DNA from: Diphasiastrum complanatum
Lineage: Eukaryota > Streptophyta > Lycopodiopsida > Lycopodiales > Lycopodiaceae
Length of the DNA: 64,000 bases
Assembly (NCBI GenBank): GCA_029204225.1
Contig: CM055094.1
Span: 21,507,584 to 21,571,583, forward strand
Direction of reading: 5' to 3'
Made by a program: the position numbers and the translations under genes. The notes under the pieces were generated by a model. The model was given only the letters and a program-made list of their open reading frames with translations, did no database searches and was not told the origin of the DNA. Each line of letters opens with the position of its first letter. The first letter of the stretch is position 1. This document shows positions 7,451-64,000 of this stretch, in pieces.

Positions 7451-7752
7451 AATCTTCACACGTGTGGAATCAAGATCTAGAAGAAAATCAACATTCTACA
7501 CAGAAAACCAAGATAGAGAACCAATAATATCACAAGCTACATTCAAATGTGCTAAGTTAACACAAAAGTGCAGCACAATTTGCTTATAATAGGCTACTTG
7601 CAAATGATCATAATCATGGTGAGCTGCAAACTCGATCTTTGCGATTACAAATTAGCCTACACTTGGTATAAATAGCATCATTTTCACCAAAAAGAAACTT
7701 TCAGAGGAAGTTGATTTGTAGAAACACTAGAATTTCAACCTCATAAAACTGT

Positions 7753-7935
7753 TTAAGAATCTAGGTCCTTAATTTTGTCATTTGGTGTAGCTATGTATGT
7801 AAGCAAATCTTGCAGAACATTACAAAAAGTCACAATATCATGCTTTACTGCCATGCTGCCATGCATGCATTTTAGGAAATGCAAACAAACTCTGATGGGA
7901 GAAGATTTGATGCTGGCACTTCCTTCTTCAGGCAT
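7753..7935 (-). CDS. Conserved 60-residue frame (family Y), divergent to family U
   Basis: The frame starts MPEEGSASIKSSPIRVC and ends IATPNDKIKDLDS. It has no recognised domain. Open copies are at 20150-20332 (minus) and 44083-44265 (plus); partial ones are near 3222-3345 and 48640-48765. It always reads away from a family U copy, about 25-90 bases from its upstream frame. It could be a small gene, an exon, or a non-coding leader that happens to stay open. Confidence 0.25.
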   Translation of the reverse strand: MPEEGSASIKSSPIRVCLHFLKCMHGSMAVKHDIVTFCNVLQDLLTYIATPNDKIKDLDS

Positions 7936-7955
7936 GGAAATGGAATTCAGAAGCT

Positions 7956-8555: not shown

Positions 8556-8561
8556 TAAAAA

Positions 8562-8860
8562 CCATACTATGGTATTTAAAGATAAGTTTGACCAGATAGT
8601 CTCTATTTATGGGGAGACTAATGTACTCCCATCATCGATGGTTTGCTCGGCGGAAGTTATGGAAAAACTACATGATTCTAAGTATGAGCTTTTTCATCTT
8701 GTTTTGAAATCTCGTATGCATTGTGATGTGAATGATGATGTGAATGTGTTAACATGCTTTAACACCAAAAATTAGCATCAAGAACAGCTTTTAATGCAAT
8801 ATTTAAAACAAGAGTTCAATGATGTTTTTCCTAAATAGGTAAGATTTTATGAGGTACATA
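8562..8860 (+). mobile_element. Ty3/gypsy protease-region fossil fragment
   Basis: The fragment carries the end of a gypsy protease and linker region (text IVSIYGETNVLPSSMVC, SAEVMEKLHDSKYEL). It matches the longer fossils at 24935-25970 and 61395-62420, and its layout resembles the corresponding part of the chromovirus in this window ([17 protein letters not shown]). It is a broken fragment with no LTRs. Confidence 0.65.
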
Positions 8861-9025
8861 CTTCTAATTATATTTCAGTCCATTTTAAGCACATAATCAA
8901 ATTTTTCCAAAATGAAATCTTTGAAATGTTTCAGAAAAGAGCAAGTACATAAAGATAGTTTTTCAATTTCAAAATTGCAGAAAACATCAAACAGAAAGTA
9001 CCATTCACTTTTGATGTTAGGTAAG

Positions 9026-9393: not shown

Positions 9394-12300
9394 TTAAGAA
9401 CCGTCTTGGTCTTCTAAGACAAAGTCTGGAAAAATCTTGCGAAGGACGCTGCCTCTTTTCCAAGTGGAATTCTCAACAGGCTGATCATTCCACTTAACCA
9501 GATATTCTCGGTATAGAGTATGACGAGTCTGCGTCTCTCTACTATCAAGAATCTCCTCTGGTTCACGTGGAGGTTGTTGAGGATCCAATGGGAGAACTAG
9601 AACACTGTCCCCTACCAGATTGTCTGATCTGGTTAAGGCTTTTCGTAACTGACTTACATGAAAGACTGGAAAAACCTTACTGCTGTGTGGGAGTTCTAGT
9701 TCATAGGTGACCTCGCCTAGTCTCCTACTGATGGTAAAGGGACCACAATACCTTGGAGACAACTTAGCACACACTCCTGATTTGAGGGTTTTAGAGTCAA
9801 CTGGGACTCTCAAGTAGACTTTCTGACCAGTGGAGAACTGCACATCCCGTCTGTGTGGATCTGCATAATGCCTGGCTCGATCCTGGGATTGTCTAATGCT
9901 ACGCTTAGCATGTTCTATCATCTGGTTTAGGTATTCTAAAAAGTTTCTGGCTGCTTCAACTTTTTCTTGTTTAAACCCTACAGTTGTGGGTGAGCGTGGC
10001 TGAAAACCGTACATTAGCATAAATGGGCTGTATCCCGTAGCTGAATGTTTGGTACTGTTGTAAGCAAACTCTAATATCGAGAGATACTCCTCCCAATTAG
10101 TCTGCTTCTTGCTGACGTATGCACGAAGCATATCCTCCAGCACTTGATTTATTCTTTCTGTTTGACCGTCCGTCTGTGGATGGTCGGTGGTACTCATATT
10201 AAGTTTAGTATAGAGATGATGGAATACTGCCCTCCAAAAATTTCCAGTAAACTTACTGTCCCAGTCGCTGACTATGCCGGAAGGTAGACCGTACAATTTA
10301 AATAGCCCGTCTACAAACAACCTCGCTAACTCTGGAGCTCTAACGGTTGTTTTGGTCGGAATAAAATGAGCCATTTTGGTCAGACGGTCAACTGTGACCC
10401 ATATAGCGTCATTACCCTTTTGGGTTTTAGACAGGCCTACTATAAAATCCATGGAGATACTCTCCCATTTACCAACTAGTATTTCTAAGGGATGCAACAA
10501 CCCTCCTGCCTTTAAACGCTCTGCTTTATTTACTTGACATTTCTGGCAACTGGTTACATACTGGTGGACGTCCTTTTTCAAACTGGGCCAGAAAAATTGC
10601 CTACGAAGAAGCTCATAGGTCTTCTGTATGCCTGGGTGTCCCGCGCTAGGATTGTCATGACATTCATATAGGACCTGCTGCCTATAATCCTCTGAATTGG
10701 GGACACATACTCTATCTCTATAGAGCAAGTACTCATCCTGAATGGAATACTGTTTCCATTTGAATCCTTGAGTCAACTGAACCTCAACCACTAGGGTTTG
10801 CTTGGGTAATACAGGCTCAGAATCCTCAACGTCATCTGACGACGTATACTCGGACTCATCATCATCCTCAATGGAAGCTGTCGTATTCTTGGATGAACTG
10901 GCACCAGCCCCGGGAACTGGTTCTGGAGTCTGTAACTGTCTGTTCTGGACTGAGTTCCAGATAATAGAGAAGAATGCATCATGCTGGTATTTCCCTCTCA
11001 AGGACTCGAGTAACTCATTACGAATCTGAGTAAAACTCAGCTCGTTTATCATAGGCATTCTGCTAAGGGCATCTGCTACTGTATTGAATTTTCCACGCCT
11101 ATATCTGATAGACATGTCAAACTCTTGTATCAACTCTGCCCAACGGGCTTTCCGACCTCTAAGCTCAGGTTGATTGCAAAGGTATCTGAGACTCTCATGG
11201 TCTGTCAGGACCTCAAAGTTGGCACCATACAAATAATGCCTCCAAGTCTTAAGGGCATGTACTATAGAAAAGAGTTCCTTTTCATAGGCATTGTACCTAG
11301 TCTGAACTGGCTCGAGTTTTTTACTCTCGAACGCAACTGGTCGTCCACCCTGAGTTAGCACAGCAGCTACTGCAAAGTCGCTAGCATCTGTTTCGACCAC
11401 AAATGGCTGATTGGGGTCGACGACTTTTAAAACTGGTGCTGTAGCTAAGGCTGTTTTGAGAGCATCAAAGCTCTCCTGTTGTGCAGACTCCCAAATGAAC
11501 TCCTTTCCCTTCCCGTTAAGGAGATTTGTCATAGGGACTGCTATCTGAGCATATTCCTTGACAAATCGTCTGTAATATCCTGCCAGACCAAGAAAGATTT
11601 GAAGTTCCAAAATATTCTGAGGTCTCAGCCAACTGAGTATGGCTTTAACCTTATTTGGGTCCATCTTAATCCCATCTGAAGAGATAATGTGATCCAAATA
11701 TGCTACTTCTTCAACGAAGAATTCACACTTGGATTGTTTAGCATAAAGCTTATGCTTTCTGAGAAGTCGAAACACCTTTCTGAGGTGTTTTAGATGCTCC
11801 TTCCTCGTTTTGCTGTAGACGAGGATGTCATCTAAAAATACGACTACAAACTTACCCAAGTATGGTCTGAGGACACTGTTCATCAAGGTCATAAAGGTAG
11901 CTGGAGCATTTGTGAGCCCAAATGGCATCACCTTAAACTCATAATGACCGTGACGAGTCCTAAAAGCTATTTTTGAGACATCTTTCGATTTTATACGGAC
12001 TTGATGATATCCCGATTTGAGGTCTATTTTGCTGAAAAACTTAGTCCCGTCGAGTTGATCAAACAACTTGTCTGCCCGAGGCATAGGATATTTATTCTTA
12101 ATTGTGACTTTATTGAGGGCTCTGTAATCTACGCAAAGACGCATAGACCCCTCTTTCTTTTTCACCAATAGGATTGGTGAGGCCCATGGTGAACTACTGG
12201 TCTGAATTTGGCCTTTCCCAAGATAGTCTGTTAACTGCCTAGTTATTTCTTCATCCTCTGTTCGGCTGACCCGATACGGAGGTTTAGAAACAGGTGCTGT

Positions 12301-14016
12301 ACCTTGTACTAGGTTTATTACATGATCTACCTCTCTGCTAGGTGGTAAACCATGTGGCAAATCTTCAGGAAAAACATCTTTAAATTTAGACAATAAAGTT
12401 TCTAACTTACTGATTTTTTGCTGAATAGAACTGGAAATAGAAACTTCAGGAATAAACTGAAAGTCACATAAGAATACCTGATGGTCTTCGTCTCCGATTA
12501 GCTGACAGAGCTCTGAACTGCAGACCATAGGGCTGTTGGGAACATCATGCTCCCCATGCAACTGGATCTCTCGGCCTTTATACTGAAAGCTGAGGGTGTT
12601 CTCCTGATAGTTTTCGTGGAGGGAAGGTCCTAAACTGTAGAGCCAATCTCTCCCGAGAACAATGTCTGTTCGATCCAGGTGCATTATCTGAAAGTTTATT
12701 TCATCTTGGTACCCCTGAATACCAAGATTTAACTTACTTACCATAGTTTCCCATATTTTTTTATCTTCACCCTTAGCTAATGAAACTATGTACCTATGCT
12801 GACTAGGTACTTCTGGTAGTTTAAGCTTTTTAACCAGGGTGTGGTTGATGAAATTATGGGTTGCCCCATCATCAACCATGACTCTTACTGACTGGTTACC
12901 AATTTTCCCATGCATACGTACTAGGTCATGTGGCCCAAAGCTGAAGGGTCTTGCTAGCATTGCAGAGGTCAGCTGGCAACAATGTTCATGATCTTCATGA
13001 TACACTTTGATCTCGGAAGCTGCCGAGTCACTAGGGAAACATACAGTCTGAACAAGATGAACTTGTTTTTTATCTTTTTTATCTTTTTTTGTGAAGGGCC
13101 CCTTGGGACACTGTCTGACTGTGTGTCCCTTGCCCATAAACACAAAGCACAAACGTTCTTGTTTGGCTTTCTCAAAATCATCTGGTTTTAAGGGCTGTAT
13201 GAGTGAAGGGCGTTTCTGAGGAGCTTCACCTTTAAATTTATCTTCTTTCTTTCTTTTTAAAAATTTCTTTTTAAATTGAAAGTCTTTCTGAGGAAGCTGC
13301 TCAGAAAGTGGTTGTTGTCTCGCTCTCTTCCTACCCACTGAATCATCATAGATTTGAGCATATCTGAGAGCTTGCTCAAGGGTAGTAGGCGAGTTTCTCT
13401 GGACCTCTACTTTATATTCATCTTTGAGGCCAAGGACAAATCCCCTGATTTTTTGATAGTCATCCATATTTTTAATCTTTAAAATTGCTTCTCGATACTG
13501 CGAGATATATTGGATGAGGGATTTATCCATTAGTGTTCTTTCCCAGGCTTCCCAGGCTCTATCCAGTTCATTTTCTGGTAGAAATTCTCTTAGGAAAGCT
13601 TTTTCAAAAGCTTTCCATGACCGGGGAGTCTGCCCAGTCTCCTGGAGATTTAACCACCACTTATAGGCCATAGGCCCTAAGGAAAGACTGGCCTCAATTG
13701 CTTGCAAATGGTCAAGGGTCTGTTTAAGAGCATGAATGTTCTTCCATTTGCTGAGGAAGGTTTGTAGAATATCTGCATTTCTATCCTTCTCTTCCCCATT
13801 AAAAGTAGGAGGCTTTAAATCTTTAAAAACACTGGGGTGAGACCGTAAAGTCTCACCCGAAACTGATGGAAGTGGAGAAGGGGATAATTGAAAAGTGGAG
13901 GGAAGGCTTCCTTTCGCGGAACTCAAAATCAAGTTTTTGAGTTCAGCGAACAAGTCGTCCACACTGGACTTGAAATTGGCTAATGCCAACTTCAGTTCAT
14001 CCACTTCTGTTACCAA
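9394..14016 (-). CDS. Chromovirus Gag-Pol polyprotein
   Basis: The frame encodes 1540 residues of a virus-like retroelement polyprotein. In order it shows a gag region (about 60-230), a basic and zinc-knuckle-like region (240-320), an aspartic protease with VDDGATHNF (381-389), reverse transcriptase with [13 protein letters not shown] (553-565), [13 protein letters not shown] (696-708) and [10 protein letters not shown] (727-736), RNase H with ETDASDFA (875-882), an integrase zinc-binding region (H1120...C1157-C1160), an integrase core with SMDFIVGL and SDWDSKFTG, and a chromodomain-like carboxyl end with YLVKWNDQP and STWKRG (about 1490-1530). The order RT-RNase H-integrase plus chromodomain defines a chromovirus. 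Single-frame gag-pol is usual for several plant lineages. The frame looks whole. Confidence 0.95.
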
Positions 14017-17445: not shown

Positions 17446-18560
17446 TCACAACTAGTTTGAAGATAACATAGAATTGCTATCAACCCTAGGGCTGACCTTA
17501 ACTTCACAAATGCAGCTCTTTGAAGTGGCTTAGTGAGGATATCAGCAACACATTCACTACTTGCCACATGCTCCAAAGATATCTCCTTAGATTGCACCTT
17601 CTCTGACACAAAATGATGAGAGATCTTGATATGTTTTGGTATTGCATGGCAGATTGGGTTGGTTGCAAGGTGTTGGACTGAAATGTTGTCATTGTAGAGA
17701 GTTGGAACATCATATAAACTTTGCTAAGGATCTTGGAAGTCCTGAGGCAAGCTCCTCCTTGCACATGATCTCCATGGATTTTGAGTTGATGTGGCCAAGT
17801 CTTTTGTGCCGTAGAATATGGTTGGATAGCTTGGTCTCCTTGGCTAGCATCACAATATTAGCATCCACATAGGCATCTAGTTTGAACAGTCTTCCAAACC
17901 TTATGCCTCTAGCAATGATCTTGCCATCCTTCTTGATGTTACATGTATTGGTGGCGAACTCCACAATCAAACGATTGTCAAGCAATTGTCCTACACTAAG
18001 CAAGTTTTTAGTGATACTAGAAATGTAAAGTACTCCATCAATCTTGATTTTCCATGAAAATCCCAAGCATAAAGGTATGGATCCTATTCCTTCTATCTTA
18101 CAAGCATAATTATTTGCTGTAAAAATTGACTTGATAGGTCCTTCATAGGTAGATAAGGTTGAAAAATACTCCCTCTTATTTGTCATGTGGGAGCTAGCCC
18201 CACTATCTATCCACCAAGGGTCTTCACCTCTTATGATTGAAGAAGAGAAACTTGGCATCATGACGAAATCTTCATGAGAGCTCTCCTCTTCCTCTTGACC
18301 AAGATTTGTTGGACTTTGAGTTTGCTTCTTCTTGAATAGATGCAAAATAGAAATGATTAAAAGACTAGGTATCCCACTACCTAGGGACTTGAGAAAGCTC
18401 AAAACTTGACCTCTCAATAAGATCCTACCCGATCTTAAGCCAAATCATATCTATTAATGTTAACAAGAATGGAAACTAGCTTGAATTTGCATAAAAATTG
18501 GATGTAGAACTGCCTCCTCCTTGATCTCGACTTCACAAGGATATAGGATTCACCTAACCT
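17446..18560 (-). mobile_element. Ty1/copia fossil, internally deleted
   Basis: In element orientation it shows gag-leader sequence, the protease region (WWIDSGASSHMTNKREYF), the segment IDGVLYISSITKNLL, the pre-integrase region (RLGHINSKSM) and then, with most of pol missing, the very end of RNase H next to the polypurine tract and LTR. It is a broken non-autonomous derivative, the inverted twin of 39700-40792. Several breaks are present. Confidence 0.85.
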
Positions 18561-22235: not shown

Positions 22236-22530
22236 CTAAATATCATCTCCATATTGATCTTCCCACAGAATATGCTCCACTGTCGAGAAAAAATCTGAAA
22301 GGATCCACCTTACCAGACAGGAAACAAGTTTCAAACAGGTTTTAAAGAAGATCATGAAATTATATTTTGGATTTTTAGTAAAATAGAATATCCAGAGATA
22401 ATTAAGAATCATATGAGCGACACACCACTCAATGTTCCTAGAATAGGTGATTTTAAGGTGGAATGGCATTTGGTTCACACACCAAGAGCTACAGGGAGTG
22501 AAAATTCAAAACTTAGCGAAATGTTTTAAC
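22236..22530 (+). pseudogene. Family X, two-end fragment
   Basis: The amino-terminal part (YHLHIDLPTEYAPLSRKNLK) lies next to the carboxyl-terminal part (FKEDHEIIFWIFSK, MSDTPLNVPRIGDFK, ending KLSEMF and a stop at 22528). The 1.5 kb that separates these parts in the copies at 35572-37212 and 56915-58842 is absent. It is not one continuous frame. Confidence 0.5.
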
Positions 22531-22614
22531 TGATCAAACAACATTTATATAGCTAGAACCAATAAAACCCAAGCCGTACACTCGTCGATCCAACAACGGA
22601 TCAGATCTACGGCA

Positions 22615-23021
22615 TGTAATACAACCGTCCACACGTGTGAGACCACACGTGCTACAATACACGTCAATCTGCCATTCGGCCATGTGCCCACACGTGCGAG
22701 CTAACACGTGCCAGAACACACGTCACCAAACCATTCGACCACATGGCCACATGTGCAAGTTTCACACATGCGGATACAGAAGTGTGGTCCCACACGTCAA
22801 ATACTGATTGGGCCACGTGACCACACGTGCGAGCCGATATGTGCAAGAACACATGTCACTGATCCATTCGGCCACGTGTCCCCACATGGGATCCCACATG
22901 TGTTGATCCAGATGTGCAGTTTCACAAATGCGTATACAAACATGTGGTTCCACATGTTAGCTACTGACTGGGCCACATGTCGCTCGGATTCACACGTGCC
23001 AACTTTTTTCTCCTATATAAG
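22615..23021 (+). promoter_or_regulatory. ACGT-core (G-box) array with TATA box, copy 1
   Basis: I count eight CACGTG hexamers by eye in about 390 bases (for example in CCACACGTGTGAG, CCACACGTGCGAG and GGCCACGTGTCC), plus several ACGTCA and CATGTG relatives. They are arranged in at least two diverged units about 133 bases apart (starting near 22679 and 22812). A good TATA box, CTATATAAG, follows at 23013-23021. The inverted copy at 56424-56860 lies upstream of the histone-like frame. Here only a 23-codon frame (MAGDSRDFRKV..., 23043-23114) follows, then satellite, so any gene this promoter served has been lost or replaced. Confidence 0.6.
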
Positions 23022-23114
23022 TCCATTCCCGGGGATTGTACAATGGCCGGTGATTCCAGGGATTTCAGAAAGGTCAACGTACGACGAGTTGAGGCTACAA
23101 CTACAACCACATAG

Positions 23115-23505
23115 TCCTACCATAGGCTTGTGTGGTTTACCACATGGCATACCATAGACTTGTGTAGCAGGCCACATAGGCCTACGATTGACCAACGCTG
23201 TGAAAGGTGCCCACGTGTCAAGTCACGTATCACTGCCATGTGGCAAATCATGCAGGCTTGGGGCTAGTCACGTGGCAAGCCACGTAGGCCCATCATATGC
23301 TGGCAAGCCAACCAGGCTCTGCCTATGTGGTCTGCTATTTGCGAAGCCTATCGCACACTACCACATGGCAAGCCACGTAGGTCTACCACATGGCAAATCA
23401 TGCAGGCTTGAGGGTTGCCATGTGGCAAGCCATGTAGGCCTACCATAACCTTGTATGTCAAGTCAACTGGGCCCTGTGCCACGTAGGCTTGAGTGGACCT
23501 AGAGA
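23115..23505. repeat. Palindromic CACGTAGG/CCACATGG satellite, copy 1
   Basis: The region is built of short palindrome-like words such as GCCACGTAGGCC, CCACATGGCAAGCCACGTAG and GCCATGTGGCAAGCC. It ends in AGATCTATATATATATATAG. Other tracts are at 34854-35580, 55486-55700 and 63850-64000. No gene is seen. Confidence 0.85.
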
Positions 23506-23581
23506 TCTATATATATATATAGGTGGGCTCAAATCTCTTGCCATAAAAACCAGCCAAGAAGATAAACTTTTTCAAACCCTA

Positions 23582-24500
23582 AATGTGTCCTAAAAGACAC
23601 AAAAAACAGCAAGTATCAAATCTAAAAAATCAGCACCAAAATGTGTCGAAACCACACATTAGATGGATGTAGGAACTCGCCCTCCTACAAGCCTTGTGTG
23701 CTGAAAATTTCAGCCTGAAATTGCATTACAAACTCAAAAAACCAGCAAGCAAAGAATTAGGTTACCCCCAAAAAAGCAATATTCCTTTGAACGGGATTGA
23801 AGATTTGAAAACTATTATGACTAAAATGATTTGTTCGGCATTTAAAATTGCCAAAATCAAATTGCTCAAATACAAACAAATATCTAGAACCAATGATTTT
23901 AAATGGGTTTCGAAAAATACAGGTTCATATGAATGGAGTACTATAGACCGCAAGAATACCTTATGCATTTGGAATTCCTATTTGACAGACAATTGCATTA
24001 TCAGACTTGGGGATCATACTTGGCGACAGGTCGGGGGAATACCAATGGGTTTTTCATATTCACCAATGTCTTGTAATTGGTACCTTTCTTTTTTTTAAAT
24101 GTAGTTTATTAAGAGGCTTGCAAGATTAGGGGAAATTAAATTTATAAACGACTTCAAATATTCGTTCAGGTACATTGACGATATATGCTTTATCAATAAT
24201 CATACGGTTGGACGTTTCCTAGACAAGACTCAACCAAGAACACCTGACAATCCTTTTTGGATCTATCCCCTGGAATACCTTGAGATAGACGGAAACGACA
24301 ACACATGTAATTTGGTGAACTTTATGAATATTACAATTACCTTTAACCCAATTACCGGTTGTACACATCTGTCCAAATATGATAAAAGGGGAGACCTTCC
24401 TTTTCGCTTTTTGCAATATATACACCTTGCCTCATATAGACCCGTGTTTAACTCATATAATAGGTCTGTGGTAAATTGGGGTAGCTTGATATGTATCTAG
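23582..24500 (+). mobile_element. Reverse-transcriptase relic, copy 1
   Basis: This is the homologue of the longer frame at 62862-63773. It has the motifs GGIPMGFSYSPMSCNWYLS (about 24031-24087) and FRYIDD (about 24169-24186). It is broken. A telo-box AAACCCTAA occurs at about 23574. See the other copy for family assignment. Confidence 0.65.
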
Positions 24501-24935
24501 GCAACTAATAAAACAACAACACACCTCTGGATGGCTTCACAAGCTTCTCTAACTCATTCTTATGATACTATCATTATGTCTAACTTTCCAAATACTAGAT
24601 GCAAGAGTATTTGACAGATTCCTAATTCTTTACTCTCCAAGTGTTGTTTGTAGCTCATCGTAGATGCTTTGAGAATAATGTTACTAGTTATATTAATTGG
24701 GGGGGGGGATTATTTTGGATTTTTGCTCTTGAATAGGGATTTTGGAAGTTCCTTTATTGCATTTAGGTTTGCCATTACTTTTTCCCTATTTACTTTTTTG
24801 GGTTAAGGCAATTGAAAGCCTTAAAAAAAAAGCAATTTTTGTTGAGTACTTTGTAGACCTAGCAACCGTATCCTTTTAGAGGTGTATGCTATTTTTTTCC
24901 ATTTGAAAAAGGCTTCTAATAATCACTTAAGGGTC
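24500..24935. repeat. Spacer with ten-base G run
   Basis: No gene is supported. The G run at 24699-24708 sits in the context TATTAATTGGG, the same context as the G or C runs at 7154, 29740-29760 and 62653-62665. The first part resembles 6960-7260. Confidence 0.65.
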
Positions 24936-30763: not shown

Positions 30764-32276
30764 TCAGGAATAGTGGGCATCATGCTTAAGATATTGCTCG
30801 CGCAGCCACTTGGAGCAGCTTCGAGTCAGCATTTGTCTTCGACCAGCAAATGCTTTTGATCTGTGGGTGTAAGCCTTATCAGCATTGATGATAAAGCCTG
30901 AAGTGCACATCTCTTCGAAGATTTGTATGGAGTCTGCAGGAAAGTATTGTATCCGTAAATAGATCCTGGTATCCTCCATGTGAAGCGCTGGTTTGTTGGG
31001 ATTGATGAAAAATTGTGGATCCTGCTCAAACCTTCGGCCCATGACAGTCATCAGAAACTGGCAGAACTTGTGTTGTAGCTTGATTGTAGGATCGTCAGAA
31101 TCGGAGAAGAGAACGAGCCATCTATTATCGCAAAGTTGCAAGGATATGCTGATATGTTGTCTTCCGATCTCCATGCTAGCGCTCGTCTTCTACGAAAACT
31201 TGGGTCGAAAGAAGGATCATTCTGAATTTGCTTTGGTGATTGATCAAGCATTTCATAGACGTACGTATCTTTGAGGAATGGAGCTCTCCAACCGGTCGAC
31301 GCAATTAAATCTGGCTGAGAAGAGCTCCTGATCGAATTAGATGTCGTCGTTGGAACTGACTTGTCCCCGTCTTTTCGTCCTATCAGAGTTGACTTACTGG
31401 CATGCTTATGATTTTGCTCACGTAGCCAGTTGAAGCAGTTTTGAGTCAGTATTTGTCTTCGACCAGTAAATGCTTTTGATCTCCGGGTGTACATGTAACC
31501 CTCATCAGCATTGATGATAAATCTTGAAGTGCACATCTCTTCGAAGATATGTATGGAGTCTTGAAAAAAGTATTGAATCCGTAAATAGATCCTGGTATCC
31601 TCCATGTGAAGGACCGCTTGTTGGGATTGATGGAAAATTGTGGACCTTGCTCAAACCTTTGGCCCATGACAGTCATCGAAAACTGGCAGAACTTGTGTTG
31701 TAGCTGGATTGTAGGATCGCGAGAATCGGAACTCAGTTCCCAGAAATTATTGATTGATGTATGACATTCCTTCTGAGAAGAGAACGAGCCATCTATTATC
31801 GCAAAGTTGCAAGGATATGCTGATATGTTGTCTTCCGATCTCCATGCTGGTCTTCTACGAAATCTTGGGTCGAAAGAAGGATCATTCTGGATTTGCTTTG
31901 GTGCTTGCTCAAGCCTTTCATTCACGTGCGTATCTTTGAGGATTGGAGCTCTCCAACCGGTAGACGCCATTAATTCTGGCTGAGAAGAGCTCCCGATCAA
32001 ATTAGATGTCGTCGTTGGAACTGACTTGTCCGTGTCTTTGCGTCCTACCAGAATCGAATTACTGATATTCTGTGTCTCCAAATCTCTTCCGCATATAGAT
32101 TTCGTACTTTCTGATATTTTGGCCAAACGGATTTTCTTAGCCACGGATACTATGTTCATTTCTAGGTCCTGCTCCATCTTCCTAAGCCGATGTTGGATCA
32201 ACAATCCTTTTCTGAGAATCTTTAGCCTCCTGTAAATGACGAAAATAAGAGGCGAAATCAGAAGGACAGAGAACAT
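30764..32276 (-). pseudogene. Broken copy of the 517-codon gene, copy 2
   Basis: The start at 32276 and the membrane segment MFSVLLISPLIFVIY are intact and the first domain is well kept. The copy then loses its frame about twice: once from a one-base loss in the first domain near 31620, and once from a deletion of roughly 18 codons in the second domain near 31105. Its carboxyl end (KWLREQYLKHDAHYS) is still present. The sequence is otherwise very close to 4596-6149, so the damage is recent. Confidence 0.75.
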
Positions 32277-32281
32277 CGATA

Positions 32282-32470
<189 letters not shown>

Positions 32471-32479
32471 TTCCATGCA

Positions 32480-32890
32480 TTGCATTCTATTTGTACTATT
32501 TCGGGTTAGACGTTGAGGCATTGTAGTCATATGTATAGAGCATCCCATCCTTAAAGGAGAACTTGTGACCATTCTCTAGGTGACTTGAATAAGCCCGCCC
32601 TCCATTCATTTCAAAGTCAAGAATAATCCATGCCCCTTTCACACTCGTAGCCATCTATACTATACACCCCCCCCCCCCTTACAACAATCAAATTTTACTT
32701 GTCCAAGAATAGGAGAAAGATGAGCATGAGAAAAGGTCACAATTGTATCACATTTTAGTTGCCCAAGACAAAGGTAGTGCATGAGAAATTAAGGCAACAG
32801 GAAAGGCACATTCACAGGTTTGTTTGAAGGGAGCTTTTCATGTCGCATAAGCACGAAGAGATGTGACGAATTAAAAGGTGAAAGTAGATT
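32480..32890 (-). promoter_or_regulatory. Upstream region of the broken 517-codon gene
   Basis: This is the inverted copy of the module at 4085-4463 and 49591-50025, with a 12-base C run at 32667-32678. It has an extra segment (near 32600-32660) that 4085-4463 lacks. Confidence 0.4.
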
Positions 32891-34250: not shown

Positions 34251-34590
34251 AAATAGTGGTTTAACTACCTCTGGCAAGTAGATAAGTGGATGAGGTCGAG
34301 TTTGGACCCATTCTAATTGACTAAATTTTGGTACATTGCTTTCAAAAACTTATAAATTGTATTCATCAATGGAGATGTCTAGAGGACATGGTGTGATAAA
34401 TTGTCAACTAGTTTGGTTTTTCATTTGACAATTTTGGAGGCCAAAATGAATCTCAACTTCGAGTTAGTTTCATATTTGTTAATAAGGGCCTAAATAGTGG
34501 TTTAACTACCTCTGGCAAGTAGATCAGTGGATGAGGTCGAGTTTGGACCCATTCTAATTGGCTAATTTTGGTACATTGCTTGGGACCCTT
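34246..34590 (+). repeat. 241-bp tandem repeat, about 1.5 units
   Basis: GGGCCTAAATAGTGGTTTAA occurs at about 34246 and again near 34487, 241 bases apart. It is in the same orientation as 53446-54155. Confidence 0.9.
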
Positions 34591-34672
34591 CTTATCTCCA
34601 TCAGATATTTTTTTTCAACGTTGATGCTAGGCCATACCACAGGGAAGTAGTTCATGTGTGACTCCTCGCTCA

Positions 34673-35571
<899 letters not shown>

Positions 35572-35580
<9 letters not shown>

Positions 35581-37212
35581 CTTAAAATCACCTATTCTAG
35601 GAACATTGAGTGGTGTGTCGCTCATATGATTCTTAATTATCTCTGGATATTCTGTTTTACTAAAAATCCAAAATAGAATTTCATGATCTTCTTTAAAACC
35701 TGTTTGAAACACAAAATCATGAACTATTCTCAGAGAATTGAACTCAGACCTATAATAACAAAACAATACTAGCTTAAAACACAAAACCATTAATTCTCGA
35801 AATGAATTAGTTGCTAGTACTCAATAGAATAGATTTAAACCTGGAAAGCTGCAACCACCAAATATTATTTTCGGACTGGACACTGAAATTAAGACTCTCC
35901 GAGTTTATCGTATTGCTTAATGTTCCATTCATAAGTGTAACACTAACCCTTTCCAGCTTTTGTCCCTTTATTACTTCTGATTCATCTAACTTGGAGAACT
36001 AATATCAATTTTTCAACAATTTCGTTTGTGATTCCATAAAACTTTACAATAAATCTCTATAAATGATTCAGATCTACAAACATATTGCTGGTAGAATCAT
36101 ATGACAAAGTGCCATGTTTTGAGTTATAAATTTCATTGATATGGTAAGGAATACCAATGATGTTTTGCAAACCCCTGTTTAACACATCTCTCTCTAATTT
36201 GATTTGAAAGGGCCGGGGAATAGGAAATTGTTTTATATGTACTTGTCCAAATGCCTCTTTGATAATTTTAAACATCGTGTCATATGCATCCCTGCTAATA
36301 CCAGAATAATCACATGCTCCTTGTATCAATTTTCGGTCAATGATCTTGCTGACTTCACCCATAAGGGCCTCTGCAATCTTCGGCTTGATTCGAGATTATC
36401 GTTGATTTCCAAGTAGACTCGTCATTGACTTGGCTGTAAGTACTGCACTCAAACCTTTCCAACCATGTCCTTGTCTTTCGGATTTTCATTGGTGACTAAA
36501 GCTTATCTGCAAAAAAGAAATAAGATTTAGAAGAAAACAATTCACAACCATTGATGTGCTAGATGAAACAAAACACATGAATAGTTTAAAACATAATCCT
36601 ACTTGAAAGCATATATTTTTTTTTTCCGTTGAACCCCACTTGTTGAGAGCTCATTAATACTTTTTAGAATAACTCTTTTTCACTTATTGTTCAGTATTTT
36701 CTTCCGTAATGTGTTTACTTCTAAATTTATTTGACAATATGAGGTACACAATGTTTGTACAATTAGTTTCATGTTGTCAATTTCTTGGTTGAGGTTTAAT
36801 ATAATATCTTACAAACAAGAATTATCTATCTTCAAGATTTCATTTTCTTCTTTTGTTTGCAAAAAAAAGTTTCTTTTTCTCGGTAGTCAGCAAGCAAACC
36901 ATTCAACATATTTTCCAAACAGTGGATTTTTTTCATTGAATAACTAATGCCATAAATTTTCAATCTTTCACAATAATCCAATAGACTATTGTGTCCTTCA
37001 CACAAAAACAGTATGAGTTGCATGACCGATCTAAAATTTGGATGTTGCATTGAGCTTGGATCGATTGGATACAAACATCCATCAACCCGTAGATCACAAT
37101 GTTTCCTGTCTTTCGTCCTTTGGTGAGCTGGTAAGGTGGATCCTTTCAGATTTTTTCTCGACAGTAGAGCATATTCTGTGGGAAGATCAATATGGAGATG
37201 ATATTTAGACAT
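35572..37212 (-). pseudogene. Family X, unknown, several exon-like segments
   Basis: On the minus strand the first segment, 37212-36832 (126 codons), starts MSKYHLHIDLPTEYALLSRK and includes SSMQHPNFRSVMQLILFLCE and a lysine-rich end. A second segment (36362-36057) has MGEVSKIIDRKLIQGACDYS, FGQVHIKQFPIPRPFQIKLE and NIIGIPYHINEIYN. A third (35790-35572) has YYRSEFNSLRIVHDFVFQTG and MSDTPLNVPRIGDFK. A pyrimidine-rich stretch ending TTTTGCAG precedes the second segment (near 36510), as expected for a splice acceptor. I do not recognise the family. It may be a multi-exon host gene copy or part of a DNA element. Confidence 0.45.
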
Positions 37213-42640: not shown

Positions 42641-43189
42641 CTGGACAAAATATGGGAAAAAGAAAGAAGTATACATGATATAAAGGAAAGAAAGGACAAG
42701 GGAGTGGTGCAAAAGAAGACTTACCGGCTAAAAGACTAAACTTTTACAGGGATTAACTGGCTCGCAGGATGTTGAGGATCTGCATAGAAGAACTCTCACT
42801 AGGAATACGGTGGATCGACTACAACTCAGCACGCACAAGGACAAGGCAAAGATATTTTTACATTTACGCTACTGTAATAGAATGTTTGAGACCATTCATG
42901 TGAGACACTTTTATACTTGTATTTTATTATAGATCTTTGGCCTTATATACACAAGTCCTTCCATGATATTGTGTTTGCTTGGTCATACTTTCCTAACATC
43001 AAAAGTGAATGGTACTTTTTGTTTGATGTTTTCTGCAATTTTGAAATTGAAAATCTATCTTTATGGTCTTGCTCTTTTCTGAAACATTTCAAAGATTTCA
43101 TTTTGAAAAAATTTGATTATGTGCTTAAACCGGACTGCACTGCAATATAATTAGAAGTATGTATCTCAGAAAATCTTACCTATTTAGGA

Positions 43190-43462
43190 AAAACATCATT
43201 GAACTCTTGTTTTAAATCTTGCATTAAAAGCTGTTCTTGATGCTAATTTTTGGTGTTAAATCATGTTAACACATTCACATCATCATTCACATCACAATGC
43301 ATACGAGATTTCAAAACAAGATGAAAAAGCTCATACTTAGAATCATGTAGTTTCTCCCTAACTTCCGCCGAGCAAACCATCGATGATGGGAGTACATTAG
43401 TCTCCCCATAAATAGAGAATATCTAGTCAAACTTATCTTTAAATACCATAATATGGTTTTTA
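43190..43462 (-). mobile_element. Ty3/gypsy protease-region fossil fragment
   Basis: This is the inverted twin of 8562-8860. It is broken and is joined directly to the 3' side of a truncated family U copy at about 43462. Confidence 0.6.
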
Positions 43463-43466
43463 AAAT

Positions 43467-44062
43467 CTATTTACAAGTGGAGTCTCGGCTCGATCGACTG
43501 TGGAGGGCTTCGGATCGGTCGACTTTTGATGGACTCGGCTCAGTCAAGTTTGTATACAGAATATGGACGCTCAGCTTGGTCCACAGTGAATGCATAGTAT
43601 GGACGTTCGGCTCGGTCCATGGTGATTGCAGAGTATGGGGGCTTGGCTCTATGAGCAGTGTATGTAGAGTATTGCTCGGCAATGTATGGAGACTAGAAAT
43701 TTGTGGAAAAATTTGGAGCAATGTCACTCTGATAGGATGTGGAAACGATGATGTTTCTTCGCGATAACGTACTAGTAAAGAGCTTTCCACCCAAATCGAT
43801 GTTGAATGTGTGGTTTTGACAAGCTCCAGTAGCACTACCCCTCAGCATTTGGCTCGTGCTAGATGTGACGATTTTTGTGTAATGTAGCAGATCTCGGCAG
43901 CATAGGGTTTTTGAAAATGGATGATGATGGCGCTCTAGATCCATGGTGGATGTATGTAAATGGTGTCCAAGGATGCGAAGGAGTAATCAAGCACAGTCGT
44001 AGCAAATGATAGATCACCACTAAAAGATGGAAAATCAATCCTTTGAAGCTATAGCTTTTCAA
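43467..44062 (-). pseudogene. Family U, 5' half
   Basis: This is the twin of 7956-8555. The repeat-bearing frame 43835-43467 (MLLELVKTTHSTSIWVESSL) is open for 122 codons, with a telo-box near 43905. Between this and the gypsy fragment the 3' half is missing. Confidence 0.45.
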
Positions 44063-44082
44063 AGCTTCTGAATTCCATTTCC

Positions 44083-44265
44083 ATGCCTGAAGAAGGAAGT
44101 GCCAGCATCAAATCTTCTCCCATCAGAGTTTGTTTGCATTTCCTAAAAAGCATGCATGGCAGCATGGCAGTAAAGCATGATATTGTGACTTTTTGTAATG
44201 TTCTGCAACATTTGCTTACATACATAGCTACACCAAATGAGAAAATTAAGGACCTAGATTCTTAA
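44083..44265 (+). CDS. Family Y 60-residue frame, copy 3
   Basis: The frame reads MPEEGSASIKSSPIRVCLHF and ends EKIKDLDS, divergent from the U copy at 43467-44062. Confidence 0.25.
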   Translation: MPEEGSASIKSSPIRVCLHFLKSMHGSMAVKHDIVTFCNVLQHLLTYIATPNEKIKDLDS

Positions 44266-44710
44266 AGAGTTTTATGAGGTTGAAATGCTAGTTTTTCTAC
44301 AAATCAACTTCCTCTGAAAGTTTCTTTTTGGTGTAAATGATGCTATTTATACCAAGTGTAGGCTAATTTGTAATGGCAAAGATCGAGTTTGCAGCTCACC
44401 ATGATTATGATCATTTGCAAGTAGTCTATTATAAGCAAATTATGCTGCACTTTCGTGTTATCTTAGCACATTTGAATGTAGCTTGTGATATTATTGGTTC
44501 GATATTCTAGTAGCTTTTTTGCACCATTTAAGGTAAGAGAAAGAGAGCACAATCTTTAACGCTTGCTTCTTGTACAACCAAATTACCTTCCAATTTTTTC
44601 AAGCCTATTTGCGGTAAAGTGTCTCACATCTCTATGGAACATATGCACAAAAGTGAATCACTTTCTGCCACATGATGATAGTGATACATTGTGCACTAGG
44701 GAATCACATT

Positions 44711-49590: not shown

Positions 49591-50023
49591 CACACATCAA
49601 TATTAATCTACTTTCACCTTTTATTTCGTCACATCTCTTCATGCTTATGCGACATGAAAAGCTCCCTTCAAACAAACCTGTGAATGTGCCTTTCCTGTTG
49701 CCTTAATTTCTCATGCACTACCTTTGTCTTGGGCAACTAAAATGTGATACAATTGTGACCTTTTCTCATGCTTATCTTTCTCCTATTTTTGGACAAGTAA
49801 AATTTGATTGTTGTAAGGGGGGGGGTGTGTATAGTATAGATGGCTATGAGTGTGAAAGGGGCATGGATTATTCTTGACATTGAAATGAATGGAGGGCAGG
49901 CTTATTCAAGTCACCTAGAGAATGGTCACAAGTTCTCCTTTAAGGATGGGATGCTCTATACATATGACTACAATGCCTCAACGTCTAACCCGAAATAGTA
50001 CAAATAGAATGCAATGCATGGAA

Positions 50024-50058
<35 letters not shown>
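49591..50058 (+). promoter_or_regulatory. Upstream region and 33-bp (CT)n of gene copy 3
   Basis: This is the same module as 4085-4584 but with a CT tract of only 33 bases (50026-50058). The ATG at 50014 is in frame with the gene start at 50068 (54 bases). Confidence 0.5.
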
Positions 50059-50062
<4 letters not shown>

Positions 50063-50067
50063 TATCG

Positions 50068-51600
50068 ATGTTCTCTGTCCTTCTGATTTCACCTCTTATT
50101 TTCGTCATTTACAGGAGGCTGAAGAGTCTCAGAAAAGGATTGTTGATCCAACATCGGCTTAGGAAGATGGAGCAGGACCTAGAAATGAACATAGTATCGG
50201 CGGCTGAGAAAATCCGTTTGGCCAAAATATCAGAAACTATGAAATCTATATGCGGAAGAGATTTGGAGGCACATGATATCAGTAATTCGACTCTGGTAGG
50301 ACGCAAAGACGCGGACAGTCAGTTCCAACGACGACATCTAATTTGATCGGGAGCTCTTCTCAGCCAGAATTAATGGCGTCTACCGGTTGGAGATCTCCAG
50401 TCCTCAAAGATACGCACGTGAATGAAAGGCTTGAGCAAGCACCAAACCAAGTCCAGAATGATCCTTCTTTCGACCCATGATTTCGTAGAAGACGAGCATG
50501 GAGATCGGAAGACAACATATCAGCATATCCTTGCAACTTTGCGATAATAGATGGCTCGTTCTCTTCTCAGAAGGAATGTCATACATCAATCAATAATTTC
50601 TGGGAACTGAGTTCCGATTCTCGCGATCCTACAATCCAGCTACAACACAAGTTCTGCCAGTTTCTGATGACTGTCATGGGCCAAAGGTTTAAGCAAGATC
50701 TACAATTTTCCATCAATCCCAACAAAGCGATCCTTCACATGGAGGATACCAGGATCTATTTACGGATTCAATACTTTCCTGCAGACTCCATACATATCTT
50801 CGAAGAGATGTGCACTTCAGGATTTATCATCAATGCTGATGAGGGTTACATGTACACCCAGAGATCAAAGGCATTTACTGGTCGAAGACAAATACTGACT
50901 CGAAACTGCTTCAACTGGCTACGTGAGCAAAATCATAAGCATGCCAATAAGTCGACTCTGATAGGACAAAAAGATGGGGACAAGTCAGTTCCAACGACGA
51001 CATCTAATTCGATCGGGAGCTCTTCTCAGCCAGATTTAATTGCGTCGACCGGTTGGAGAGCTCCATTCCTCAAAGATACGTACATCTATGAAATGCTTGA
51101 TCAATCACCAAACTAAATTCAGAATGATCCTTCTTTCAACCCAAGTTTTCGTAGAAGACAAGCGCTAGCATGGAGATCGGAAGACAACATATCAGCATAT
51201 CCTTGCAACTTTGCGATAATAGATGGCTCGTTCTCTTCTCAGAAGGAATGTCATACATCCATCAAGAATTTTTGCAAATTAACTTCCGATTCTGACGATC
51301 CTACAATCAAGCTACAACACAAGTTCTGCCAGTTTCTGATGACTGTCATGGGCCGAAGGTTTGAGCAGGATCCACAATTTCTCATCAATCCCAACAAACC
51401 GGCGCTTCACATGGAGGATACCAAGATCTATTTAAGGATACAATACTTTCCTGCAGACTCCATACAAATCTTCGAAGAGATGTGCACTTTAGGCTTTATC
51501 ATCAATGCTGATAAGGCTTACACCCAGAGATCAAAAGCATTTGCTGGTCGAAGACAAATGTTGACTCGAACCTGCTCCAAGTAGCTGCGCGAGCAATATC
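50068..51600 (+). pseudogene. Broken copy of the 517-codon gene, copy 3
   Basis: The start and membrane segment are intact (MFSVLLISPLIFVIYRRLKS). The frame is lost in the linker near 50316 by a small indel, and further interruptions follow (near 50478, 51115 and 51584). The two-domain layout is still clear, with 50667-51116 and 51339-51584 open. It lies 12 or so bases from the CT tract, as in the other copies. Confidence 0.75.
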
Positions 51601-55485: not shown

Positions 55486-55700
55486 CAAGCCTACATGGCA
55501 AACTTAGTTGGATTGCCACACAAGCCTACGTCAAGCCTATATGGCAGACTGCAACATACCAGCATGAATATATATATAGATCTCTAGCTCCACTCAAGCC
55601 TACGTGGCACAGGGCCCAGTTGGCTTGACATACAAGGTTATGGTAGGCCTACATGGCTTGCCACATGGCAACCCTCAAGCCTGCATGATTTGCCATGTGG
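55486..55700. repeat. Palindromic satellite, copy 3
   Basis: It includes the TATATATATAGATCTC junction near 55567 and the phrase CCACATGGCAACCCTCAAGC. Its distal end forms the last 20 or so codons of the histone-like frame on the minus strand. Confidence 0.85.
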
Positions 55701-56096
55701 CATACCGGTGTCATAGGTGTCTTGAAACCTCATGACAAGAAGCATGTCCTTGGGCATTAGTGTCACCCTCTTGCCATGAATGGAACACGGCATCGAATCC
55801 TCAAACAATTTTGTCTGGAAGTCCTCGTATGCAACATGGAGGGCCTCCAATGCAGTGATATTCCACCTCACTGCATAGGGCAGATGCGTGGTCATATCTT
55901 GTGTAACCTCCCTCACAGCCCGGTACAAGGCTGCTTTCAGGATCACAAGTTTGGCGTACCTCTGCAAGGCCCTGATGTAGCTCAACCATGGACGGCGAGG
56001 TCTTCCACATCTTTGCAGATGCATGGGTTCAGATGTCTGGGGACGGGACGGTTGAACAAAATGGGTAAGCCTAGAAGTTTGCTTCATCCGAGCCAT
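55638..56096 (-). CDS. Divergent histone H3 / CENH3-like protein
   Basis: This is an open frame of 152 codons. It begins MARMKQTSR, close to the H3 tail ARTKQTAR; K4 is kept and the K9 position is leucine. The rest of the tail is short and unlike H3. From about residue 33 the histone fold is recognisable: RRPWLSYIRALQRY against RPGTVALREIRKY of H3, KAALYRAVREVTQDM against KLPFQRLVREIAQDF, and LFEDSMPCSIHGKRVTLMPKD (residues 97-117; 15 of 21 match H3). Loop 1 is about four residues longer than in H3 and carries R77-W78, and DSM...RVTLM resembles plant CENH3; these are CENH3 traits. The sequence is more GC-rich than its surroundings. The histone part ends near residue 127; the last ~20 residues are translated satellite. 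The start has good context (CCTCAATGG). It is unique in the window. It may be a real centromeric or sex-linked H3 variant or a young degenerate copy. Confidence 0.75.
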   Translation of the reverse strand: MARMKQTSRLTHFVQPSRPQTSEPMHLQRCGRPRRPWLSYIRALQRYAKLVILKAALYRAVREVTQDMTTHLPYAVRWNITALEALHVAYEDFQTKLFEDSMPCSIHGKRVTLMPKDMLLVMRFQDTYDTGMPHGKSCRLEGCHVASHVGLP

Positions 56097-56423
56097 TGAG
56101 GCCGGATATCTATACCATGTGAGGACAAAGATATAGCAGAAGAGAGAGCTAAATTATCTCCCGTAATGGCGACACTGAGAACTCTAAGGGTGATATCGCT
56201 ACAACGCGAGAGAGTGGCAGAGACAGGCGAGGAGAGGCAGGGGCTTGCATGATGGCGATATTGGGAAAGTCAAACTGATATCGCTACGACGTGAGAGGGT
56301 GTAAGGAATAGGCCTAGGGACGAGGTCGCTCGCATGATGGCGATATCACGAATGCAGGTCGTATGGAAGCAATCAAACATGACAGCAAATTATGCAAAAC
56401 CCTATACGATCCCCGAGAATGCA
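56097..56423 (-). other. Leader of the histone-like gene with 86-bp tandem repeat
   Basis: About 330 bases separate the TATA box from the ATG. TGATATCGCTAC recurs at about 56191 and 56277, and GCATGATGGCGATAT at about 56247 and 56332, giving two or more imperfect units of about 86 bases. The region is unique in the window and GC-rich. A very short upstream frame (ATG GTA TAG) precedes the main start. An intron cannot be excluded. Confidence 0.6.
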
Positions 56424-56860
56424 CTTATATAGGAGAAAAAAGTTGGCACTTGTGAATCCTAGCGACACGTGGCCCAGTCAATAGCTGACATGTGGAACCA
56501 CACGTTTGTATACGCATGTGTAAAACTGCACGTCTGGATCATTACGTCTGGGATCCCATGTGGGGACACGTGGCCGAATGGATCAGCGACGTGTGTTCTT
56601 GCACATATCGGCTCGCACGTGTGGTCACGTGGCCCAATTAGTAACTGACGTGTGGGACCAGACTTCTATATTCGCACGTGTGAAACTTGCACATGTGGCC
56701 ATGTGGTCGAATGGTTTGGTGACGTGTGTTCTGGCACGTCTTAGCTCGCATGTGTGGGCACGTGGCCGTATGGCAGATTGATGTGTACTGTAGCACGTGT
56801 GGTCTCACATGTGTGGATGGTTGTATTACGCGCCATAGATCTGATCCGCTGTTGGATCGA
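56424..56860 (-). promoter_or_regulatory. ACGT-core (G-box) array and TATA box upstream of the histone-like gene
   Basis: On the minus strand CTATATAAG lies at 56432-56424. Upstream, to about 56860, I count at least seven CACGTG hexamers by eye and at least two ACGTCA hexamers. ACGTCA is the hexamer known from plant histone promoters and, like the G-box, binds bZIP proteins. The same array, inverted, lies at 22615-23021 without a histone frame. Promoter function is inferred from layout. Confidence 0.6.
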
Positions 56861-56914
56861 CGAGTGTACGGCTTGGGTTTTATTGGTTTAGGTATATAAA
56901 TGTTGTTTGATCAG

Positions 56915-58225
56915 TTAAAACATTTCGCTAAGTTTTGGATTTTCACTCCCTGTAGCTCTTGGTGTGTGAACCAAATACCATTCCACCTTAAAGTCACCTA
57001 TTCTAGGAACATTGAGTGGTGTGTCGCTCATATGATTCTTAATTATCTCTGGATATTCTGTTTTACTAAAAATCCAAAATAGAATTTCATGATCTTCTTT
57101 AAAACCTGTTTGAAACACAAAATCATGAACTATTCTCAGAGAATTGAACTCAGACCTATAATAACAAAACAATACTAGCTTAAAACACAAAACCATTAAT
57201 TCTCGAAATGAATTAGTTGCTAGTACTCAATAGAATAGATTTAAACCTGGAAAGCTGCCAACCACCAAATATTATTTTCGGACTGGGCACTGAAATTAAG
57301 ACTCTCCGAGTTTATCGTATTGCTTAATGTTCCATTCATAAGTGTAACACTAACCCTTTCCAGCTTTTGTCCCTTTATTACTTCTGATTCATCTAACTTG
57401 GAGAACTAATATCAATTTTTCAACAATTTCGTTTGTGATTCCATAAAACTTTACAATAAATCTCTATAAATGATTCAGATCTACAAACATATTGCTGGTA
57501 GAATCATATGACAAAGTGCCATGTTTTGAGTTATAAATTTCAATTTTAGGTAAGGAATACCAATGATGTTTTGCAAACCCCTGTTTAACACATCCCTCTC
57601 TAATTTGATTTGAAAGGGCCGGGGAGTAGGAAATTGTTTTATATGTACTTGTCCAAATGCCTCTTTGCTAATTTTAAACATCGTGTCATATGCATCCCTG
57701 CTAATACCAGAATAATCACATGCTCCTTGTATCAATTTTTGGTCAATGATCTTGCTGACTTCGCCCATAAGGGCCTCTGCAATCTTGGCCTTTGCAATGT
57801 TGATTTCCAAGTAGACTCGTCATTGACTTGGCTTTAAGTACTGCACTCAAAGACTTTCCAATCATGTACTTGTCTTTCGGATTTTCATTGGTGACTAAAG
57901 CTTATCTGCAAAAAAAAAATAAGATTTAGAAAAAAACAATTCACAACCATTGATGTGCTAGATGAAACAAAACACATGAATAGTTTAAAACATAATCCTA
58001 CTTGAAAGCATATATTCTTTTTTTCCGTTGACCCCCACTTGTTGAGAGCTCGTCAATACTTTTTAAAATAACTCTTTTTCGCTTATTGTTCAGTATTTTC
58101 TTCCATAATGTGTTTACTTCTACATTTATTTGACAATATGAGGTACACAATGTTTGTACAATTAGTTTCATATTGTTAGTTTCTTGGTTGAGGTTTAATA
58201 TAATATTTTACAAACGAGAATTATC
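56915..58225 (-). pseudogene. Family X, later segments
   Basis: The third segment (57196-56915) is open to its stop with RIVHDFVFQTGFKEDHEIL and ends PRATGSENPKLSEMF. The second (57810-57481) has EINIAKAKIAEALMGEVSKI and VHIKQFPTPRPFQIK. A pyrimidine-rich stretch ending TTTTGCAG (near 57910) precedes the second segment. Both are close to 35572-36500. Confidence 0.45.
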
Positions 58226-62420: not shown

Positions 62421-62860
62421 GTGACCCTTAAGTGATTATTAGAAGCCTTTTTTAAATGGAAAAAAATAGCATATACCTCTAAAAGGATACGGTTGCTAGG
62501 TCTACAAAGTACTCAACAAAAATTGCTTTTTTTTTTTTTTAAGGCTTTCAATTGCCTTAACCCAAAAAAGTAAATAAGGAAAAAGTAATGGCAAACCTGA
62601 ATGCAATAAAGGAACTTCCAAAATCCCTATTCAAGAGCAAAAAATCCAAAATCCCCCCCCCCCCCTTAATATAACTAGTAGCATTATTCTCAAAGCATCT
62701 ACGATGAGCTACAAACAACACTTGGAGAGTAAAGAATTAGGAATCTATCAAATACTCTTGCATCTAGTATTTGGAAAGTTAGACATAACGATAGTATCAT
62801 AAGAATGAGTTAGAGAAGCTTGTGAAGCCATCCAGAGGTATGTTGTTGTTTTATTAGTTG
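62420..62860. repeat. Spacer with 13-base C run
   Basis: This is the inverted twin of 24500-24935. The C run is at 62653-62665 (ten bases in the twin). No gene is supported. Confidence 0.65.
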
Positions 62861-62861
62861 C

Positions 62862-63773
62862 CTAGATACATATCAAGCTACCCCGAGTTACCACAGATCT
62901 ATTATATGAGTTAAACACAAGTCTATATGAGGCAAGGTGTATATATTGCAAAAAGCGAAAAGGAAGGTCTCCCCTTTTATCATATTTGGACAGATGTGTA
63001 CAACCGGTAATTGGGTTAAAGGTAATTGTAATATTCAGAAAGTTCACCAAATTACATGTGTTGTTGTTCCCGTCTATCTCAAGGTATTCCAGGGGATAGA
63101 TCCAAAAAGGATTGTCAGGTGTTCTTGGTTGAGTCTTGTCTAGGAAACGTCCAACCGTATGATTATTGATAAAACATATATCGTCAATGTACCTGAACGA
63201 ATATTTGAAGTCGTTTATAAATTTAATTTCCCCTAATCTTGCAAGCCTCTTAATAAACTGCATTTTAAAAAAAGAAAGGTACCAATTACAAGACATTGGT
63301 GAATATGAAAAACCCATTGGTATTCCCCCAACCTGTTGCCAAGTATGATCCCCAAGTCTGATAATGCAATTGTCTATCAAATAGGAATTCCAAATGCATA
63401 AGGTATTCTTGCGGTCTATAGTAATCCATTCATATGAACCTGTATTTTTCGAAACCCATTTAAAATCATTGGTTCCGGATATTCGTTTGTATTTGAGCAA
63501 TATCATTTTGGCAATTTTAAATGCCGAACAAATCATTTTAGTCATAATAGTTTTCAAATCGTCAATCCCGTTCAAAGAAATATTGCTTTTTTGGGGGTAA
63601 CCTAATTCTTTGCTTGCTAGTTTTTTGAGTTTGTAATGCAATTTCAGGCTGAAATTTTCAGCACACAAGGCTTGTAGGAGGGCGAGTTCCTGCATCCATC
63701 TAATGTTCGACACATTTTGGTGCTGATTTTTTAGATTTGATACTTGCTGTTTTTTGTGTCTTGTAGGGCACAT
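62862..63773 (-). CDS. Reverse transcriptase relic, 303 codons, possibly Penelope-like
   Basis: The frame starts MCPTRHKKQQVSNLKNQHQN and carries RT motifs: RLGDHTWQQVGGIPMGFSYS (about 139-158), the palm FRYIDDICFINN (193-204), and a later part with LNITITF and HLSKYDKRGDLPF (about 246-272). The order IPMG, then YIDD about 40 residues later, then YDKR resembles a broad class of eukaryotic RTs that I associate with Penelope-like elements; the class assignment is uncertain. No GIY-YIG endonuclease, integrase or RNase H is seen, and the early finger motifs are missing, so this is probably a truncated element. It starts just after a telo-box (about 63768-63776) and a TATATATATATAGA junction with satellite. 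Confidence 0.65.
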   Translation of the reverse strand: MCPTRHKKQQVSNLKNQHQNVSNIRWMQELALLQALCAENFSLKLHYKLKKLASKELGYPQKSNISLNGIDDLKTIMTKMICSAFKIAKMILLKYKRISGTNDFKWVSKNTGSYEWITIDRKNTLCIWNSYLIDNCIIRLGDHTWQQVGGIPMGFSYSPMSCNWYLSFFKMQFIKRLARLGEIKFINDFKYSFRYIDDICFINNHTVGRFLDKTQPRTPDNPFWIYPLEYLEIDGNNNTCNLVNFLNITITFNPITGCTHLSKYDKRGDLPFRFLQYIHLASYRLVFNSYNRSVVTRGSLICI

Positions 63774-63849
63774 TTAGGGTTTGAGAAAGTTTATCTTCTT
63801 GGCTGGTTTTTATGGCAAGAGATTTGAGCCCACCTATATTTATATATAT

Positions 63850-64000
63850 ATAGAACTCTAGGTCCACTCAAGCCTACGTGGCACAGGGCCTAGTTGACAT
63901 GACATACAAGGTTATGGTAGGCCTACATGGCTTGCCACATGGCAACCCTCAAGCCTGCATGATTCGCCATGTGGTAGACCTACGTGGCTTACCATCTGCT
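63850..64000. repeat. Palindromic satellite, copy 4, runs off the window
   Basis: CCTACATGGCTTGCCACATG and CCACGTGGC-like words continue to the window edge. This is the inverted twin of 23340-23500. Confidence 0.85.

Follow-up and report, generated by a model that had tools for sequence, protein, structure and literature searches.

An open, divergent H3/CENH3-like histone frame fused to amplified repeat DNA in Diphasiastrum complanatum

Within a 64,000-nucleotide stretch of Diphasiastrum complanatum contig CM055094.1 (hereafter the window), the minus strand carries an uninterrupted frame of 152 codons with an ATG (56096 to 55638), which is homologous to histones, has a longer loop 1 and ends, across a junction, in a tail derived from repeat DNA. 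In our reading, which we consider slightly more likely than not, the frame derives from a CENH3-like (CENP-A-like) H3 variant that evolves fast, and is an intronless copy of it that was displaced and became fused to the repeat. The variant would have diverged under past selection at a time when the gene still worked. Later, leader and coding part would have joined an amplified repeat as a block of approximately 700 bp, with repeat sequence taking the place of the variant's own C-terminus at the junction close to the stop codon. A translated product could still use its fold to form pairs with H4 and with another copy of itself, as the residues of H3-H3' contact and of DNA contact are mostly kept. 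For centromere function, the sequence would lead one to expect poor performance at best, since it has neither a long N-terminal tail nor the C-terminus normal for a centromeric histone. Most likely, the displaced copy is heading towards a pseudogene, and we infer that it is inactive at present.

Histone homology, tail and loop 1

Homology to histones was established by a match to Pfam PF00125 (Histone; 63.1 bits, E 3.8e-17, cut-off 26.4), while a second Pfam match, CENP-T_C, stayed below its cut-off (21.2 vs 28.1 bits). A PDB search gave 173 distinct chain sequences at E<=0.001 (best E 3.4e-15), and nearly all of the best 60 are named H3, CENP-A-type or chimeras, the rest being generic histone-domain proteins. 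With a core-histone fold above the curated cut-off and PDB matches of H3/CENP-A types, the frame belongs to the histone H3 superfamily, although only 39 of 91 fold residues are as in H3 (43% identity). The highly divergent, open H3/CENH3-like frame described in the earlier note is thus borne out. In the same register, the plus strand contains stops; the opposite strand here is also open for 107 aa (55776-56099), so openness alone says little. Structure prediction from the single sequence placed helices roughly at the H3 positions, but with a quality (mean pLDDT 47.3, pTM 0.30) insufficient for searching by fold.

Table 1 Coordinates of the histone-like frame and its surroundings
Feature	Position in window	Strand	Basis or remark
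Open frame, 152 aa	55638..56096	-	ATG at 56096, stop at 55638-55640
Histone-homologous part, residues 1-125	55722..56096	-	Pfam stretch 13-123, best PDB stretch 15-125, MARMKQTSR aligned
Extended loop 1 region, residues 65-78 (TQDMTTHLPYAVRW)	55863..55904	-	Alignments
Repeat array translated as residues 131-152, with stop	55638..55706	-	In place of native H3/CENH3 C-terminus
Block of histone part and ~308 bp leader	55707..56404	-	No other copy in window
5' leader	56097..56404	-	No other copy in window
Shared repeat resumes	56405..57116	+	669/712 bases identical to 22328-23040 (-)

A tblastn search of the frame against the 64-kb window found no second histone-like stretch, the remaining matches being either to the repeat-derived tail or weak. 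Viral contigs yielded no confirmed relative, neither with the frame as query (4 candidate stretches) nor with alignment A1 (27 candidate stretches). Scanning genome contigs with the same alignment led from 50 candidate stretches to 6 loci, which are complete or partial canonical H3s in records titled bacterial MAGs and are of use as H3 references only. Rfam and tRNA scans gave no matches, and an NCBIfam scan gave no relevant one.

The histone-homologous part combines an H3-like start, a shortened tail, a fold from approximately residue 31 and an end of homology at approximately residue 125. Residues 1-9 (MARMKQTSR) align with MARTKQTAR of H3, and the remainder of the tail, which is shorter than that of H3, is unlike it. 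Among the K4, K9 and K27 sites, K4 alone is kept, with its surroundings in part; L stands at the K9 position, and the K27 context is absent. The near-identical fold and K4/K9/K27 tail of canonical H3.1/H3.3 are therefore not found in this frame, nor is the long non-H3 N-terminal tail of CENH3. In the alignments, loop 1 is 4 residues longer than in H3 and has RW at its end, as expected of a CENH3. Tyr58 of the frame occupies the column of H3 Gln68, a replacement typical of CENP-A, and F84 of H3 is changed as well. The QD before loop 1 is H3-like, and MPKD is as in H3, its P also being present in human CENP-A. The MARMKQTSR start, the retained LFEDS and KRVTLMPKD, the longer loop 1 with R-W and the short tail lacking the K9 and K27 contexts had all been pointed out before and are indeed present in the minus-strand frame.

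Among the aligned H3 positions, C110, H113, D123, L126 and R129, which we take to be H3-H3' contact positions, are kept. The same applies to R69, R72, R83, R116 and T118, presumably positions of DNA contact; I130, R49 and R63 are changed. As described in excerpts of two papers, a longer loop 1 and a replaced H3 Gln68 are hallmarks of CENP-A (PMC11633173), and CenH3 is marked by a longer loop 1 and a non-canonical tail (PMC4308911).

Junctions with the amplified repeat

The frame lies in an ampliconic repeat setting, as the earlier note had stated: the window contains 278 inverted pairs, the 25 longest of which measure 432-1370 nt and are 91-98% complementary (for example, 7513-8882 with 43136-44505), and it is also rich in direct copies. 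Repeat sequence enters the frame itself. Its last 22 codons, residues 131-152, are translated repeat array, which was absent from the earlier account, and the native C-terminus, the part of CENH3 that contacts CENP-C, is missing. The array, antisense to these codons, recurs at 23380-23518 (-) and 63842-63980 and partly at 35461-35578; the stretch 55568-55706 is identical to the sister copy 23518-23380 at 135 of 139 bases.

In the copy at 23040-23380, the place of the block at 55707-56404 is taken by approximately 340 bp of different sequence, most of it array. Beyond the junction, the copy at the window end, which includes the array at 63842-63980, continues into this array too, matching the sister copy at 151 of 157 bases. 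As two sister copies carry array and one carries the block, the histone block appears as the newcomer and, judged from these alignments, probably joined the repeat later than the sister array. A third copy (34576-35993) is without 55682-56982 altogether; on its right flank, 415 of the 417 bases beside the gap agree, compared with 96.4% over 1608 positions, an unevenness that makes the order of events less than certain. The leader holds an imperfect duplication (56166-56261 and 56252-56346, 71% identical). At the edges of the block, neither terminal repeats nor target-site duplications were seen on inspection by eye.

In simulations with an assumed indel rate, the frame survived in 27% to 7% of neutral copies at 3-6% change since joining, and in 80% at 0.5% change. 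Given that the block would have joined recently and changed little since, the intact frame is weak evidence of function. The description as an intact gene therefore stands for the open frame, but a working gene is not implied for a block that seemingly joined the repeat recently. One alternative, which we regard as possible though unlikely, is a functional H3 variant of a specialised kind (centromeric, gametic, sex- or B-chromosome-linked) that is expressed here and tolerates the repeat tail as a new C-terminus. In its favor, the frame is open, the first ATG falls precisely at the H3 start in the alignment, the GC content by codon position is 0.51/0.42/0.58 in a window of 0.34-0.44, the fold sites show constraint, and only the above 27% to 7% of neutral copies remain free of stops and frameshifts. 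However, chances of this size are not small, the C-terminus is repeat DNA, the basic tail is mostly lost, and the frame is a single copy in the window and lies in a TE-rich stretch. It is also conceivable, but very improbable in our view, that a CENH3-like histone whose tail is encoded by the repeat is both carried and expressed by the amplified repeat as its own. If true, such a repeat-borne histone could bias how strong the centromere is on the chromosome with the repeat, or how that chromosome segregates.

Past selection and placement between CENH3 and H3

Between the coding part and Arabidopsis H3.1 (an unconfirmed reference sequence), no fewer than 97 nucleotide changes are counted in 120 aligned codons. 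Under assumed mutation models and with H3 taken as the ancestor, neutral decay to the observed identity left 2.6% of 5000 runs stop-free (6.3% for the fold alone); with the indel rate assumed to be 0.12 per substitution, every one of the 5000 acquired a frameshift. On the same assumptions, sites that CENH3s conserve hold more of the residues retained from H3 than expected (P 0.0018; 131/5000 with checked references). The retained sites together with the missing stops suggest that the bulk of the divergence accumulated while the gene still worked. Counting against selection, the observed amino-acid replacements, with a mean BLOSUM of -0.62 vs -0.55 for neutral ones, are no more conservative, and the fold alone lends no support to it (-0.37 vs -0.50 neutral, P 0.295). 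The repeat location and replacements as radical as neutral ones would also fit a canonical H3 pseudogene in simple neutral decay. This explanation is scarcely credible, and we disfavored it, since the frame has neither stop nor frameshift despite so many inferred changes and the sites retained are mostly the conserved ones.

The affinity of the frame was assessed with two reference sets, one wider and confirmed only in part (5 H3, 6 CENH3) and one checked, with sequences supplied or confirmed by tools (4 H3, 3 CENH3). With the wider set, 17 positions agree with at least one CENH3 but with none of the H3s, and 2 positions are H3-only. Neutral decay gave a mean of 5.7 and a maximum of 14 CENH3-only positions, and the BLOSUM-weighted simulation a mean of 7.2 and a maximum of 15 (2000 runs each). 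The checked set gave 12 CENH3-only positions, a number that 0/5000 simulations of decay from H3 reached (mean 3.3, maximum 10); for all of these counts, any fast-evolving H3 may use the same tolerant sites.

The tree proposed earlier led to a similar, partial answer. The best trees place the frame on the CENH3 side, with support of 91/95 (wider set) and 78/91 (checked set), values that are not strong, but placement with H3 was not rejected (AU p 0.06 and 0.175, respectively). Holding the frame with plant CENH3 alone was likewise not rejected (AU p 0.209, wider set). Its branch is very long, at 0.9-1.5 changes per site, which counts against our preferred explanation. Against a CENH3-like reading we also count the best ungapped scores (canonical H3 172 and 171, Cnp1 171, Arabidopsis CENH3 158) as well as the H3-like N-terminus, QD and MPKD.

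These features could instead belong to a divergent gene of canonical H3 type, not CENH3, whose loop 1 was lengthened independently. Besides the MARMKQTSR start, QD and the top pairwise scores to H3, this alternative would account for the unrejected H3 placements and for the lack of an intron, as H3.1 genes are intronless. Yet the 17 CENH3-only matches exceed every simulation, including the BLOSUM-weighted ones, and Gln68 is lost; we consider it rather improbable. Altogether, a placement of the frame on the CENH3 side rather than with H3 is favored by these sequence comparisons, but not decisively. The earlier CENH3-like label holds for the fold features and fails for the H3-like first nine residues, the missing long CENH3 tail and the C-terminus replaced by repeat DNA. 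As this affinity is favored but unproven and two CENH3 features, the long tail and the native C-terminus, are lacking, we do not file the frame as a CENH3 member.

Known histone variants and neighboring elements

With CENH3/CENP-A, the frame shares the histone fold, the longer loop 1, the replaced Gln68 and a Trp before helix 2; its DSM and VTLM are, we assume, as in Arabidopsis CENH3. It differs from this family in the H3-like first nine residues, the short N-terminal tail and the missing native C-terminus. With canonical H3.1/H3.3 it has in common the MARxKQTxR start, QD after helix 1 and MPKD in loop 2, but the fold identity is only 43%, loop 1 is longer by 4 residues, Gln68 and F84 are changed, and the K9/K27 contexts are absent. 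Unlike the CenH3 of Gossypium polyploids, for which an excerpt of PMC4308911 gives 7 exons, the frame is without an intron. Plant "H3-like" variants, named as a class in an excerpt of PMC4357034, resemble it, by their description, as H3 copies outside the H3.1/H3.3 signatures. Judged by title and opening lines of the abstract, no paper among those listed in literature searches dealt with a CENH3 copy inside a repeat amplicon. An intronless, repeat-fused frame with an H3-like start and a CENH3-like fold would show how centromeric histones get copied and released from constraint, and it offers a concrete case for asking whether displaced copies of this kind are ever used.

Several other elements were observed in the window, and the types of transposon, along with the CENH3 residues, would point to a plant origin of the DNA. 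A reverse-transcriptase-like frame at 62862-63773 (-), with an inverted copy at 23656-24708, contains the motifs GIPMGFSYSP and FRYIDDICF, and is presumably reminiscent of Penelope-like elements. It matched RVT_1 at E 0.023 only, below the cut-off, had no match in PDB, and gave no confirmed relative among 16 candidate stretches in the viral contig scan. The arms of the inverted repeat (62654-63706 and 23656-24708) are complementary at 97%. A 517-aa frame at 4596-6149 (+) has an internal 666-bp duplication (78% identical) and no Pfam match below E 0.05; it is repeated in other amplicon copies, partially near 31051-32480 (-) and near 50014-51116 (+). At 9394-13671 (-) lies an uninterrupted Gypsy-type polyprotein of 1425 aa with gag, protease, RT, RNase H, the zinc-binding part of integrase and a chromodomain (Pfam), and a Copia-type gag-pol fragment (Pol_BBD, gag_pre-integrs) is located at 17710-18261 (-).
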